49,582 nt of DNA from Actinomycetota bacterium. Its GTDB lineage: Bacteria > Actinomycetota > Acidimicrobiia > Acidimicrobiales > JAJPHD01. Shown piece after piece: positions 1 through 4,902 of this stretch; the first letter of the stretch is position 1; every line of letters starts with the position of its first letter. The notes beneath the pieces are model-generated. The model saw only the letters and a list, made by a program, of their open reading frames with translations. It did not search any database and was not told the origin of the DNA. The stretch is taken from assembly GCA_021325455.1 (NCBI GenBank), contig JAJPHD010000028.1, positions 1-49,582 on the forward strand, given 5' to 3'. Made by a program: the position numbers and the translations under genes.

Positions 1-460
1 GCTCGACACCGAGCAGCCGCTTCCATAGCTTGTGCTGTGACACCCCGTCTGGCCTCCGTGGTCTTGGACCGTCAAGAAGCCCAGAACCGTAGGAGCCATG
101 CGGGGTGGCACCGCGGATGGCCGCTCAACCCACCCACGACAACGTCAGTAGACCCGGAGGCTCTCGTCCGAGGAGGTCTATGCGACGCCACCGCCACGTC
201 CCCCGATGCCACCGGCACACTGCCGCCCGGTGCTGCCGAGCCCACCGCCGTGGTGGACCCGATGGTCGGGAGCGGGTGCCCCGCCCGAGGAGGTCCGAGA
301 TTGGTCGGCAGCGGGAGACCTCGCGGATCGCTCGACCACCGATCCGCGAGCCTCGCGGCAGCAAAGCCGCCGGTCGGGGCACGAGTACCGGGGTCTGGAA
401 GGACCCCGACTGTAGGGGAAGGTTGGCAGTGAAGCTTCGCCGCCTACTCGGCGGGCGGCG
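1..460. other. Non-coding region upstream of the replication-relaxation gene
   Basis: I see no convincing gene here; the open frames have no recognisable protein and overlap one another. The stretch holds a perfect 11-bp inverted repeat (320-330/340-350) and a 14-bp near-direct repeat, 13 of 14 identical, at 165-178 and 282-295 (core CCGAGGAGGTC). A weaker relative of the ATCCGCGAG motif lies at 109-120. It is probably the control region of the mobile element; that role is inferred from repeats shared with 2214-2438. Confidence 0.5.
320..350. repeat. Perfect inverted repeat, CTCGCGGATCG arms with 9-bp spacer
   Basis: CTCGCGGATCG (320-330) and CGATCCGCGAG (340-350) are exact reverse complements separated by 9 bp. 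Each arm contains the 9-mer ATCCGCGAG or its complement, the same core that recurs four more times between the next gene and the recombinase gene. Spaced inverted arms of this kind fit a dimeric DNA-binding protein site (operator or partition/replication site). The binding protein is not identified. Confidence 0.6.
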
Positions 461-2116
461 ATGAACGGGGGCCGCAGCGTTGCGACGAGGATCGATCGGC
501 TCGGCGCTATCGACCACGACATCCTCGCACTGCTCCAGCTCCACCGGGTGCTGACTACGCCTCAGCTCATCACGCTCACCCGTCGTCCGGAACGGACCAT
601 CGACTACCGCCTCAGCCGGCTGCGTGAGCGCTCGCTCGTCGACCGCATCCGTCCGTACGCGGCGTCGGGGTCGGCGCCGTTCTACTGGTGGCTGACCCGT
701 GCCGGCGCACGCCTCGTCGAAGGCACCTCGCCCGCTCCAGGTAAGGGCACGCCCAACCCGCTGTTCCTCCGCCACACCGCTGCCATCGCCGGCCTCTACG
801 TCGCGCTCTTCGACGTGGGCCCGTCGGTCGGACTCACCCTCAGCGAGTGGCGCCGGGACGAGGACGCCTGGGAAGACTGGTCGGGCTATCGGGGCACCGG
901 GCGCATCCGTCCCGACGCCTACGCCGAGGTCCACCTCGACGTCGACGGCCACGACGGCGTGGCCGGCGCGTTCGTGGAAGTCGACTTCGCCACCATGGAC
1001 CAGGCGCGCCTGCGGGCCAAGGTCGCCCGGCACCGGAGCTGCAAGGACACCATCTCGTGGGACCGCCACCCGTGCTGTCCGGCGCTACTCCTCGTCACGA
1101 CGTCTGAGGCCCGGGTGAACCGGTTCCTGGCCGGCGTCGAGAAGGACCGGCCCCGGCCCTCTCTCTACCCGAGTGAGAACCCGGCCCACTACGACGAGCT
1201 GGTGGCGGCGTGTGCAGCCGTCGCTTCGCCGGAGGACGCCGTCATTGCGCCGGTGTGGCGCCAAGCCGTGGGAGACGCACCGACCACGCTGTCCCGGCTG
1301 CTCGCGCCCGACGTGCGCCAGTACCGCCAAGTGGTGGCACTCGTCGAGGCCGCGCAGCGCCAGCACGACGAGCACCGGCGGCGCCAGCTGGTCCACGACC
1401 TCCACCGCGACGCTCCGGCGCTGGCCGACGCCATCGGCGACGAGGAGAGCGCGGCGGTGATCCGGTACCTCTTCGCCGGGCCGCTCAACGTGATCAACGC
1501 TCGCGAGCGGTGGGGCCTGGAGCACCTCGACCTCATCGAGCACACCGCCCGCTGGTGGGCAGAGACGAAGGCCGGGACCAGGGCGGCGGCACCGTCGTCG
1601 GTCCTCGACGCCTGGCGTGCCCTCTACCGGGAGTGCTGGACGGCCCAGGCCGACGTGCTGCTCTCGGGCAACGAGGCGGTCCGCTACGACGACCCGCGGC
1701 TGCACCAGCCGGCTGCCGCCCTCGCCGCCGGCGCGCTCGCCGACGACCGCGACCTCCGGCCGGCGTCCCCGATCGACGGGCGGGCCGTCGTCGACGAGGG
1801 GATGGTCAGGCACGAGCGGCGCCGCTCGGCGTCCGTGACCCGAGCGCTCCGGGACCTCCCACTCCACCGGCGCCTGCGCACGGAGCGGGCGGATCTCGAG
1901 GCCGCCTACGACGCCGAGCACCTCCTCGTCTGCCCGACGTGCGCCGTGCCCTGCAACGACGAGGAGCCGCCTGGCCGCAGCTACCACGCTCAGGCGTGCC
2001 GATGCTGCGGCGGGGCGCTCGTCCGACTGGTCGACGCACCCGAGCTCCCGCCGCCTCTGGCCGAATCGCTCGAACGGATCGCCGCCCGCCGGGCCCGGCT
2101 CCTTGGTGGCCGATGA
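461..2116 (+). CDS. Replication-relaxation family protein
   Basis: 551 aa. The first 90 residues form a winged-helix-like segment (HRVLTTPQLITLT, then RPERTIDYRLSRLRERSLV) followed by YWWLTRAGARL. This is the signature of the replication-relaxation family found on actinobacterial plasmids and integrative elements and thought to act in plasmid replication or mobilisation. The family domain is about 200 residues, so the remaining 350 are unusual; they end in a probable zinc-binding module (CPTC...CRCC, about residues 487-512). The ATG at 461 has only a weak GGGCGGCG upstream, so the start is moderately sure. It lies upstream of a serine recombinase in the same orientation, with motif-bearing non-coding DNA on both sides, which supports a mobile-element gene. 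Confidence 0.75.
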   Translation: MNGGRSVATRIDRLGAIDHDILALLQLHRVLTTPQLITLTRRPERTIDYRLSRLRERSLVDRIRPYAASGSAPFYWWLTRAGARLVEGTSPAPGKGTPNPLFLRHTAAIAGLYVALFDVGPSVGLTLSEWRRDEDAWEDWSGYRGTGRIRPDAYAEVHLDVDGHDGVAGAFVEVDFATMDQARLRAKVARHRSCKDTISWDRHPCCPALLLVTTSEARVNRFLAGVEKDRPRPSLYPSENPAHYDELVAACAAVASPEDAVIAPVWRQAVGDAPTTLSRLLAPDVRQYRQVVALVEAAQRQHDEHRRRQLVHDLHRDAPALADAIGDEESAAVIRYLFAGPLNVINARERWGLEHLDLIEHTARWWAETKAGTRAAAPSSVLDAWRALYRECWTAQADVLLSGNEAVRYDDPRLHQPAAALAAGALADDRDLRPASPIDGRAVVDEGMVRHERRRSASVTRALRDLPLHRRLRTERADLEAAYDAEHLLVCPTCAVPCNDEEPPGRSYHAQACRCCGGALVRLVDAPELPPPLAESLERIAARRARLLGGR

Positions 2117-2213
2117 GCGGGGCGACGGAGCAAGGAGCCGGGGCGCGGCACCCCGAGCACCGGGGCACGACCGGGTGCGAAGGAGCCGGATCGGGCGCCG
2201 CGACGGTTCCCTG

Positions 2214-2438
2214 CCATCCGCGAGGTCACGACGCCGGCCGGGTCGACAGTCCCCCACACGCGGGGGACCTACCCCACCATCCGCGAGGCGCTCGGGAACG
2301 GGCGCGGGCCGAGGTCCCGCGAGCGGGAGAACCCGGCTCGGGAGTCCATCACCATCCGCGAGGGGCACCCCGAAGCGTGCGGGAGGTCCCGCGCCCGGGA
2401 CTGACCGCATCGAGGTCCCACCACGACCTCGCGGATGG
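2214..2438. repeat. Iterated 12-mer CCATCCGCGAGG, three direct and one inverted copy
   Basis: Exact copies start at 2214, 2277 and 2352; the reverse complement CCTCGCGGATGG is at 2427-2438. Start-to-start spacings are 63, 75 and 75 bp. The 9-mer core ATCCGCGAG also forms both arms of the inverted repeat at 320-350, giving six copies in about 0.9 kb of non-coding DNA around one gene. Chance recurrence at this density is very unlikely even at high GC. Iteron, partition site or operator are all possible. Confidence 0.7.
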
Positions 2439-2571
2439 TGGGAGTGCACGTCAGGTGCCAGCCGCGAAGGCGTTCGGGCCCTACGCCCGGGCGCTCGTCG
2501 CCCTCGCCCTGGAGGTGCGCTCGGAGGGCCTTGCTCTCCCCGGCGTTCGGAGGTCTCATGGACCGCTTGGC

Positions 2572-2579
2572 AAAGGAGG
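2572..2579 (+). promoter_or_regulatory. Strong ribosome binding site fixing the recombinase start
   Basis: AAAGGAGG stands 6 nt before a GTG at 2586. From that GTG the protein begins MRCVIYLRVSTKEQ, the canonical N-terminus of a serine recombinase. The longer open frame reaching back to 2103 is therefore not translated as part of this protein. Confidence 0.8.
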
Positions 2580-2585
2580 ATCCCG

Positions 2586-4259
2586 GTGCGTTGCGTGATC
2601 TACCTGCGGGTCTCGACCAAGGAGCAGGCCGAGAAGGACCTGACCGAAGAGGGGTTCTCCATCGCCGCCCAGCGCGAGGCGTGCGTCCGGCGCATCCGTG
2701 ACGAGAGCTGGGAGCTGGTCGACGAGTACGTCGACAAGGGCGAGTCAGCCCGCACGGCCGACCGACCGCGGCTCCGCGCCATGCTCGCCCGGGTCGCCGA
2801 GGACGGCGACGTGGAGGCGGTCGTCGTCCACAAGGTCGACCGCCTGGCCCGGAACATGGAGGACCACATCGCCATCCGGGCGCTACTGCGCCGCCGTGGC
2901 GTGGCGCTCGTCTCGGTGACCGAAAACCTCGACGAGACCGCCTCGGGACGCCTCGTCGAAGGCATCCACGCCCTCATGGCCGAGTTCTACTCGGCCAACC
3001 TGGCGGCCGAGGTGCGAAAGGGTATGGGCCAGAAGGCGAAGCTCGGCGGCTACCCCCACAAGGCCCCGCTCGGCTACCTGAACGTCCGAGAGCCGATCGG
3101 CGGCCGCCAAGTCGCTCACATCGTCGCCGACCCCGAGCGGGCCCCGCTCGTGCGGATCGCCTTCGAGCTGTACGCCACGGGCGAATGGACCGTCGAGCGC
3201 CTGGCCGAGGAGATGGCACATCGAGGCCTTCGCAACCGGCGCCGCGACGGCCACTACCCGGCCAAGGCAGTGACCGTCTCGGGGTTGGCGCACCTCCTCG
3301 CCCACCGGGCCTACGTCGGCGTCGTCGAGTGGGACGGTATCGAGTACGAGGGAAGCCACGAGCCGCTCGTCGACCGGGCCACCTTCGACAAGGTCCAAGA
3401 GCTGCTTGCCGCCCGTGCCATGCGCGGCACGCGCGAGCGCCGGCACCACCACTACCTGAAGGGATTGCTCGTCTGCGGGGTGTGCGGGCGGCGCCTCTCG
3501 ATCCAGTACTCGAAGGGCACCTACACGTACTTCTACTGCCTGGGGCAGAAGGATCGGCGCAACGGGACCGGCTGCCGGGAGCGCTACGTCGCCGCCGACC
3601 ACCTCGAAGCCGAGGTCGAGGACCTCTACGGCCGCATCGAGGTGCCGATCGACTGGGCCGAGGGGCTGCGCCAGGCCATCGAAGCGGAGGTAGCCACCCG
3701 TCACGAGGACACGACGGTCGAGCGCGACCTCCTCGCCACCCAGCACGAGCACGCAGAGTCCGAGCGCTACAAGCTGATGGAGGCCTACTACGCCAACGCC
3801 ATCGACGTCACCATGCTCCGTCGCGAACAGGAGCGCATCGGCGCCGAACTACGGGCCATCGAGTCACGCCGGGCCACCCTCGACGCCAGCCTGGAGGACT
3901 GGCAAGAGGTCATGGACCTCGCTCTCCGGTTCTCCACGCGGTGCGCCACCGCGTACCGGCGCGCTGGAGACCGGACGAGGAAGCTGCTCAACGCCGCGGT
4001 CCTCGACCAGATTCACGTGCGCGACGGCCACGTCGTCGAAGCAGGCTACAAGGAGCCGTTCGATCTCCTCTTCTCTGTGCCGAAGTTCGAATACGACGAT
4101 GTGGTGGGCCGTAGAGGACTCGAACCTCTGACCCCTTGCGCGTCATGCAAGTGCGCTACCAACTGCGCCAACGGCCCGGTCCCGATGCACCTTAGCAGCC
4201 GCCGCCCGGTGGTGGCCCGGGTTGGCGGAACTTTGCTCAGTACCCGCTCGGGGGGTTGA
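2586..4259 (+). CDS. Large serine recombinase / site-specific integrase
   Basis: 557 aa. The resolvase catalytic domain is at the N-terminus (YLRVSTKEQ, nucleophilic Ser10; VVHKVDRLARN; LVEGIHALMAEFYSANL). A recombinase domain follows at about 160-270, then a zinc ribbon (LLVCGVCGRRL ... YFYCLG ... GTGCRERYV, about 295-335), a coiled-coil stretch (about 370-440) and a C-terminal tail. It should catalyse integration and excision of the element to its left. The last 50 or so residues come from reading antisense through the tRNA-Val gene (GRRGLEPLTPCASC) and past it, so this C-terminus depends on the integrated state if the crossover is at or near the tRNA. The start is fixed by an AAAGGAGG site. 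Family assignment is firm; element boundaries are inferred. Confidence 0.93.
   Translation: MRCVIYLRVSTKEQAEKDLTEEGFSIAAQREACVRRIRDESWELVDEYVDKGESARTADRPRLRAMLARVAEDGDVEAVVVHKVDRLARNMEDHIAIRALLRRRGVALVSVTENLDETASGRLVEGIHALMAEFYSANLAAEVRKGMGQKAKLGGYPHKAPLGYLNVREPIGGRQVAHIVADPERAPLVRIAFELYATGEWTVERLAEEMAHRGLRNRRRDGHYPAKAVTVSGLAHLLAHRAYVGVVEWDGIEYEGSHEPLVDRATFDKVQELLAARAMRGTRERRHHHYLKGLLVCGVCGRRLSIQYSKGTYTYFYCLGQKDRRNGTGCRERYVAADHLEAEVEDLYGRIEVPIDWAEGLRQAIEAEVATRHEDTTVERDLLATQHEHAESERYKLMEAYYANAIDVTMLRREQERIGAELRAIESRRATLDASLEDWQEVMDLALRFSTRCATAYRRAGDRTRKLLNAAVLDQIHVRDGHVVEAGYKEPFDLLFSVPKFEYDDVVGRRGLEPLTPCASCKCATNCANGPVPMHLSSRRPVVARVGGTLLSTRSGG
4102..4177 (-). tRNA. tRNA-Val(GAC) with encoded CCA
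   Basis: On the minus strand the molecule starts GGGCCGT (4177 downwards) and ends ACGGCCC-A-CCA. D arm GCGC/GCGC, anticodon arm CTTGC/GCAAG with 7-nt loop ATGACGC, T arm AGAGG/CCTCT with TTCGAGT. The loop places T33 before GAC, so it decodes GUC valine. All four stems pair. It is overlapped on the other strand by the 3' end of the recombinase gene, and its 3' end faces the mobile element, the usual geometry for a tRNA attachment site. Confidence 0.93.
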
Positions 4260-4305
4260 ACATGCCGGCGGGGGGAATGATCCGGGCCATGGGGCTCGTC
4301 CGGCA

Positions 4306-4902
4306 GTGAAGGCGCATGCTGGGGGAGCGTCCCCAGTCTCCCACCAGGTACTGCTCTACGGCAGCGGGGAGGAGTACACAGGGGCCATCGTCCCCTTCGT
4401 CGAGGAAGGCCGTCATCGGGGAGAGCCGGCCATGGTTGCCGTGCCGGGATGGAAGCTCGACATGCTCCGAGGCGCTCTTGGCGGCCACGGGGAGGGAGTG
4501 GACTTCGTCGACATGGCCAGCTTGGGGCGGAACCCGAGGCGCATCATCCCCGAGGTGCTGCGCTTCGCCGAGGACCATGCCGGCCACCGCACTCGCTTCG
4601 TGGGGGAGCCCATGTGGCCCGGCAGGAGCGCCGCCGAGGTGCGGGAGGTGGCCCGCCACGAGGCCCTCATCAACGTGGCCTTCGCAGGCACGGGCACGGC
4701 CGTCCTTTGCCCCTATGACCGGGCCGGGCTGGACGGGGCGGTGATCACGGGCGCCTTGCGCACTCATCCGCAGGTGCGGGACCGGGCCGGGAGCCGGGCC
4801 AGCCCCACCTACGCCGGCAGCGCCGGGGTCGAGGCCGACCACACCCTGCTCCCCCCCCTCCACCCGACGCCACCGCCCTGGCCTTCCACCACCGCGAGCT
4901 GA
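4306..4902 (+). CDS. MEDS-domain sensor half of a frameshifted anti-sigma-type regulator
   Basis: 198 aa as read. HQVLLYGSGEEYTGAIVPFV followed by GEPAMVAVP is the start of a MEDS domain, a sensory module that in actinobacteria is usually fused to an anti-sigma-type ATP-binding domain. The domain runs to about residue 150 (FAGTGTAVLCPYDRAGL). After LLPPLHP the frame becomes out of register with the conserved downstream sequence at a C8 tract (4851-4858); one more C would join it in frame to the kinase-like domain that follows. The GTG at 4306 was chosen as the closest start before the domain; its ribosome site is weak. It could be a pseudogene, an assembly error or a slippery phase-variable gene. 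Confidence 0.7.
   Translation: MKAHAGGASPVSHQVLLYGSGEEYTGAIVPFVEEGRHRGEPAMVAVPGWKLDMLRGALGGHGEGVDFVDMASLGRNPRRIIPEVLRFAEDHAGHRTRFVGEPMWPGRSAAEVREVARHEALINVAFAGTGTAVLCPYDRAGLDGAVITGALRTHPQVRDRAGSRASPTYAGSAGVEADHTLLPPLHPTPPPWPSTTAS

Follow-up and report, generated by a model that had tools for sequence, protein, structure and literature searches.

A repeated DNA word on both sides of a Replic_Relax gene in a tRNA-targeting serine-integrase element of Acidimicrobiales: a possible oriT-like region

Genes and features of the locus

The window, i.e. the whole stretch of 49,582 nucleotides that was analysed, carries the following features near its left end:

180..464, plus strand: ORF1, 94 aa, ribosome binding site AGGAGGTC; its stop overlaps the Replic_Relax ATG as ATGA, and it holds the palindrome
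320..350: 31-bp palindromic site CTCGCGGATCG-N9-CGATCCGCGAG inside ORF1, two half-sites 22 bp apart
403..418, plus strand: conserved block ACCCCGACTGTAGGGG, candidate nic region 53 bp after the palindrome
461..2116, plus strand: Replic_Relax (PF13814) protein, 551 aa, proposed binder and relaxase
2113..2598, plus strand: ORF2, 161 aa; its ATG overlaps the Replic_Relax stop as ATGA, and its end lies within the start of the recombinase gene
2214..2225, plus strand: site copy 1, CCATCCGCGAGG
2277..2288, plus strand: site copy 2
2352..2363, plus strand: site copy 3
2427..2438, minus strand: site copy 4, inverted; its counterpart is direct in L043 and in the L040/L041/L048 clade
2586..4259, plus strand: large serine recombinase (integrase) with Resolvase, Recombinase and zinc beta ribbon domains
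4085..4109: right attachment site, consisting of the arm GTTCGAATAC, GACGATG and the core TGGTGGGC, which is the tRNA 3' end
4102..4177, minus strand: tRNA-Val(gac), the insertion target

The initial annotation of this DNA described both flanks of the Replic_Relax gene as non-coding. That description could not be maintained, as both flanks contain overlapping small frames which are kept open in the homologues. The four reading frames overlap end to end, which suggests an arrangement resembling a translationally coupled operon. In nearly all aligned homologues the ORF1 frame starts at the same ATG and stays open up to the same ATGA-type overlap. The distance between this ATG and the first codon of Replic_Relax varies by multiples of three, with the exception of the shifted L035; in L043 and L008 the ORF1 start was not found. 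ORF2 contains the site array in its 5' part and a conserved C-terminal helix in its 3' part, which also displays third-position bias. Its frame is open in most homologues and the indels are nearly all multiples of three; single-base shifts occur in 3 of 14 loci (L038, L041 and L046), on low-coverage contigs. The C-terminal part of ORF2 is found in the module loci, in the main subfamily directly before the integrase. Searches against Pfam and NCBIfam gave no family match for ORF1 or ORF2.

The ACCCCGACTGTAGGGG block shows 94% majority conservation compared to 78% in the rest of the ORF1 region, and it also precedes the second Replic_Relax gene of the sister subfamily described below. Instead of being a nic region, it could serve the translation of ORF1 or transcription.

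Copies of the site and their chance background

Six exact copies of ATCCGCGAG are present in the window, at 320-328 (minus), 342-350 (plus), 2216-2224 (plus), 2279-2287 (plus), 2354-2362 (plus) and 2428-2436 (minus). For the whole window 0.70 copies are expected, and six copies were reached in none of 100 shuffles. The host genome of 2.95 Mb contains 19 exact copies, six at this locus and 13 others; the Poisson probability of six copies in 2.1 kb is about 1e-15. No exact copy beyond the six is found in the window, and a scan that allowed one mismatch added six matches, which are scattered and at background level.

The count of six, far above chance, and the absence of further copies from the flanking coding sequence agree with the initial annotation. 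The spacings of 63, 75 and 75 bp given there are also correct, because the 12-mer CCATCCGCGAGG begins at 2214, 2277 and 2352 and its inverse at 2427. The perfect inverted pair at 320-350 is present as well, but its arms are longer than had been noted and comprise 11 bp each (CTCGCGGATCG/CGATCCGCGAG, 9-bp spacer).

Helical phasing of the array was considered and rejected, since the spacings differ by 12 bp and have only their divisibility by three in common. In each spacer between the site copies (2249-2402) a GTCCC..GGGAC-like inverted repeat is seen.

Conservation among homologues

Homologues of the Replic_Relax protein were taken from Acidimicrobiales-type genomes and cover 54-91% protein identity. 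All intact close homologues of the gene that were examined are accompanied by ATCCGCGAG, even at a protein identity of 54%. The common layout comprises a head-to-head pair 22 bp apart, located about 120-170 bp upstream of the Replic_Relax gene, and two to four copies after the gene with spacings of mostly 75, 63 or 150 bp. Within the 31-bp palindrome 18 of 31 columns are invariant among 12 loci, and the 46 downstream copies have the consensus TCCCCCGCCATCCGCGAGGTS. The earlier proposal that the sites belong with the Replic_Relax gene is borne out by their presence at all intact close homologues; the motif is neither evenly frequent across the host genome nor missing beside the homologues.

Two loci with related recombinases (L084, 89% identical, and L085, 71%) contain neither a Replic_Relax gene nor the motif. 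This is consistent with such an association, but little weight is given to it because both loci look decayed. In the distant Replic_Relax-recombinase pairs L015, L019, L069, L071 and L078 no repeated word exceeded the shuffles. No homologues of the Replic_Relax protein were found in viral_contigs and phages, and the plasmid matches are distant and nearly all Streptomyces proteins. A pattern scan of viral_contigs with a 10-N spacer matched four contigs, which were rejected as chance; neither gene is present in them.

A sister subfamily with a changed site

The sister subfamily L010/L024/L086 also possesses an ORF2-like region and a ACCCCGACTGTA block; here the ORF2-like part is not adjacent to the integrase. 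Nearly all of its site copies, the inverted one included, read ATCCGCAAG with the same CCCCGCC-type flank, and in L010 they are spaced by 66 and 33 bp. The sites have thus changed together, which points to one common trans-acting binder. The Replic_Relax proteins of all ATCCGCGAG loci share the recognition helix PERT[IV]DYRL, and the first Replic_Relax protein of L010, paired with ATCCGCAAG, has PERTVQHHL. More distant paralogues contain other recognition helices and the array is absent. L086 encodes a related recombinase, and the product of its Replic_Relax gene that was seen has 309 aa and an unlike recognition helix.

In L010 and L024 two Replic_Relax genes flank the site array, and the promoter-like start is the same as in the main subfamily. 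The homology among L034-L038 sets in abruptly at a conserved CCCCTTGACTTCGCGGGCGGATCGAGGTCTCAT, which lies roughly 560 bp upstream of the Replic_Relax gene (e.g. at position 5444 in L037) and is probably the promoter of the operon.

Selection on the DNA of the sites

The sites are translated differently according to where they lie, namely as IRE in ORF1, as HPRG in the direct copies of ORF2 and in antisense in the other copies. The Arg codon of HPRG is CGA, which accounts for 3.7% of the Arg codons in the genes of the window and is standard in the copies, and the His codon is CAT (14%). In the array region change is about equal at all three codon positions. The site columns are conserved above their surroundings, with 0.86 versus 0.71 in the array region and 0.97 versus 0.78 in ORF1. 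The orientation of the fourth downstream copy differs between clades, being inverted in one and direct at the corresponding place in others, and changes in the palindrome are never compensated. An Rfam scan of positions 1-4400 returned the tRNA and one sub-threshold chance hit only. The use of several frames and orientations, the rare codons and the uncompensated changes indicate that selection acts on the duplex DNA. This pattern fits protein recognition of half-sites in double-stranded DNA.

The integrative element

The proposal of an integrative element proved right, with a large serine recombinase which uses tRNA 3' ends. The 3' end of the integrase gene passes through the attachment site into the tRNA gene in antisense orientation. 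Right ends at tRNA 3' ends could be identified in the window and in ten other loci (L034, L035, L037-L039, L041, L044, L045, L047 and L048). Left ends were recognized as a common stretch ..GTGGGCCGTAGACACTCGTATTCGAAC.. in seven loci (L035, L037, L038, L041, L042, L043 and L045). The attachment arms GTTCGAATAC/GTATTCGAAC are inverted, and the elements span about 6-8 kb, with cargo on the left side that varies. An element of only about 4 kb was considered and rejected, since the left ends lie 2-4 kb further out. As the window starts at the first base of contig C16, its own element is cut off on the left.

No T4SS genes were found among the ORFs examined in L034, L037, L038, L043 and L045, which represent part of the cargo ORFs. 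The host genome encodes two VirD4-like proteins as possible helpers.

The insertion targets vary by host and comprise tRNA genes for Val (gac, cac, tac), Leu (taa) and Tyr (gta). The integrase C-terminus is read from the antisense strand of the tRNA gene (e.g. ..VVGARGLEPPTSAV*), and the tail of the protein therefore differs for each target.

The Replic_Relax protein

The protein matches the PF13814 profile with 80.3 bits (curated cut-off 25.3, E 2.6e-22), and the domain is matched at full length in L039 and L041. Its domain plan consists of a MarR-type winged helix-turn-helix (residues 1-88), a predicted PD-(D/E)XK core (about 100-228), a helical domain and C-terminal zinc-ribbon-like cysteines. 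Since the full-length AF2 model is too weak in the N-terminal half, the fold was read from a model of residues 1-240, which was built from 33 sequences and reached a pLDDT of 82.6 and a pTM of 0.79. In this model and in the structure search the winged helix, already proposed in the initial annotation, is of the MarR type (VIA Z 11-13); it also resembles the plasmid partition protein TubR (4asn, VIA Z 11.8).

Behind the winged helix an alpha-beta-beta-beta-alpha-beta order is predicted. P151, D152 and E173 are at least 90% conserved among the 33 proteins, D175 and K187 are in place, and together these residues would form the catalytic signature P151-D152, E173-x-D175, K187. As the list from the structure search is filled by winged-helix hits, the assignment of a nuclease core is based on the predicted order of the fold and on these residues. 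After K187 the protein of the window reads ARHRS-CKD, compared to ARHRxYC in nearly all homologues, and one conserved Tyr codon is lost. The Tyr that follows the K-V-A-R-H-R stretch in the homologues is thus missing, and the copy of the window might be impaired.

These predicted features make a MOBC-type relaxase the probable identity of the Replic_Relax protein. A survey of elements in streptococci lists PF13814 as the MobC relaxase superfamily (PMC5357655), and PF13814 was treated as a relaxase elsewhere (PMC12479173). MOBC relaxases are related to PD-(D/E)XK nucleases according to a review, which names one experimentally studied prototype only (PMC12857230). The prototype is TraX of the conjugative plasmid pAD1. 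It carries a winged helix at its N-terminus, its active site resembles that of restriction endonucleases, and it recognizes five direct repeats situated some 70-120 bp away from nic (PMC12857230).

Proposed function of the sites

With moderate confidence we suggest that an element-encoded protein binds DNA at ATCCGCGAG as its half-site, that this protein is most likely Replic_Relax as a probable MOBC-type relaxase, and that the array is oriT-like. The Replic_Relax protein would grip the half-sites through its N-terminal MarR-type winged helix, and the binding part of an oriT-like region flanking the relaxase gene would consist of the ORF1 palindrome together with the direct array of ORF2. Nicking would take place at a separate point, perhaps in the ACCCCGACTGTAGGGG block; the two inverted repeats at 320-350 and 403-418 are the candidates for nic. 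The serine integrase would excise the element from the tRNA 3' end, nicking would follow, and transfer would proceed through the channel of a helper, as for an integrative mobilizable element. Binding, nick position and transfer are what we infer here.

Some observations stand against parts of this proposal. The L086 gene beside the array encodes the unlike recognition helix, and relaxase repeats are usually closer together than the 63-77 bp seen here. Because the site also travels with ORF2, the binder could instead be ORF2 or ORF1.

The initial annotation had suggested a control of replication, partition or excision. This appears less likely than a relaxase/oriT function, since PF13814 is filed as MOBC (PMC5357655) and the repeats bound by the relaxase are distant from nic in the prototype (PMC12857230).

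Among the more specific alternatives an operator function is the main one, but we regard it as unlikely. The Replic_Relax protein, or ORF1 or ORF2, would bind the palindrome and the array and regulate the ORF1-Replic_Relax-ORF2-integrase operon without any role in transfer. A MarR-type winged helix and a palindromic site fit a repressor, the ATGA overlaps of the genes look like one operon, and relaxosome proteins commonly autoregulate. This explanation is weakened because in L037 a conserved promoter-like TTGACT-N17-TCTCAT, with which the homologous block starts, is situated about 390 bp before the palindrome and because the array lies deep inside ORF2; moreover, a simple scan finds no sigma-70-like site beside the sites. 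We consider it improbable that the excised circle replicates from these sites or is maintained through them, with the protein acting as initiator or partition protein. The copies are 63-75 bp apart in GC-rich DNA and do not form tight iterons beside an AT-rich stretch, a ParA, TubZ or Rep partner was not seen among the ORFs examined, and the predicted nuclease core would suit a relaxase better. The Pfam name 'Replication-relaxation', the frequent need of excised elements for replication and the likeness to TubR speak for such a role.

Even less can be said for ORF2 as a recombination directionality factor which binds the array and controls integration and excision. ORF2 overlaps the integrase start, and in the main subfamily its conserved C-terminal part is found just before the integrase; in the sister subfamily, however, the corresponding part is not beside the integrase. 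The attachment sites are at the far end of the integrase gene and at the left end of the element, the palindrome is 2 kb away before the Replic_Relax gene, and large serine integrases need only short att sites. That the repeats act as a structured RNA or as a protein-coding repeat and not as a DNA site is very improbable. The palindrome could fold into a hairpin of 11 bp, single-stranded folding of the array region is better than that of shuffles (z -3.4) and the direct copies encode HPRG, but no Rfam family and no compensatory change in the palindrome were found, the fourth copy is flipped in other clades, and the frame differs between ORF1 and ORF2 with rare codons kept.

Comparison to known systems

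The proposed relaxase/oriT function is most easily compared to oriT2/TraX of pAD1, the MOBC prototype, which shares the N-terminal winged helix and the restriction-endonuclease-like core, here predicted (PMC12857230). In pAD1 the relaxase binds direct repeats away from nic; here the direct repeats are conserved with the gene and would be recognized by its product. Unlike in pAD1, the sites are 63-75 bp apart, lie on both sides of the gene and inside overlapping ORFs, and are accompanied by a palindrome of the same word, and the protein has additional helical and zinc-ribbon-like C-terminal parts. Streptococcal integrative mobilizable elements combine an integrase with a PF13814/MobC protein and have no T4SS (PMC5357655, PMC12479173); here, too, an integrase accompanies a PF13814 protein, and no T4SS gene was seen among the ORFs examined. 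The S. suis elements encode a VirD4 coupling protein (PMC12479173), whereas none was seen here in the ORFs examined, and the elements described here use a serine integrase in tRNA 3' ends and reside in Acidimicrobiales-type hosts. MarR-family operators resemble our case in the MarR-type winged helix and the palindromic site, but here the half-sites are 22 bp apart, a distant array is present and the protein has a predicted nuclease core.

More tentatively, the locus may represent a new oriT architecture, in which one relaxase word occurs as a palindrome before the relaxase gene and as a widely spaced direct array after it. Both would lie inside two overlapping small genes whose proteins would matter less than the DNA sites. 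The element itself would be a compact one of Acidimicrobiales with a serine integrase that targets tRNA genes, and in its two subfamilies site and recognition helix would have changed together. Literature searches found no description of such elements in uncultured Acidimicrobiales. The binding site is known for few MOBC relaxases. Relaxase-DNA recognition could be tested on the natural variants which a short, conserved and co-varying site provides, and mobilizable elements of uncultured Acidimicrobiales could be traced by it.

Further observations at the left ends

In L042 three left-end sequences are found in a row, at 904, 1719 and 2573, which suggests that related elements or their remnants accumulated at a single tRNA. 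Left of position 156 the window is unlike the other elements. The 108 bp at 49-156 recur with 99% identity at the very start of two other contigs of this genome, C22 and C17, and C22 then holds a second serine recombinase, which is 46% identical (G000:C22:883-2328).
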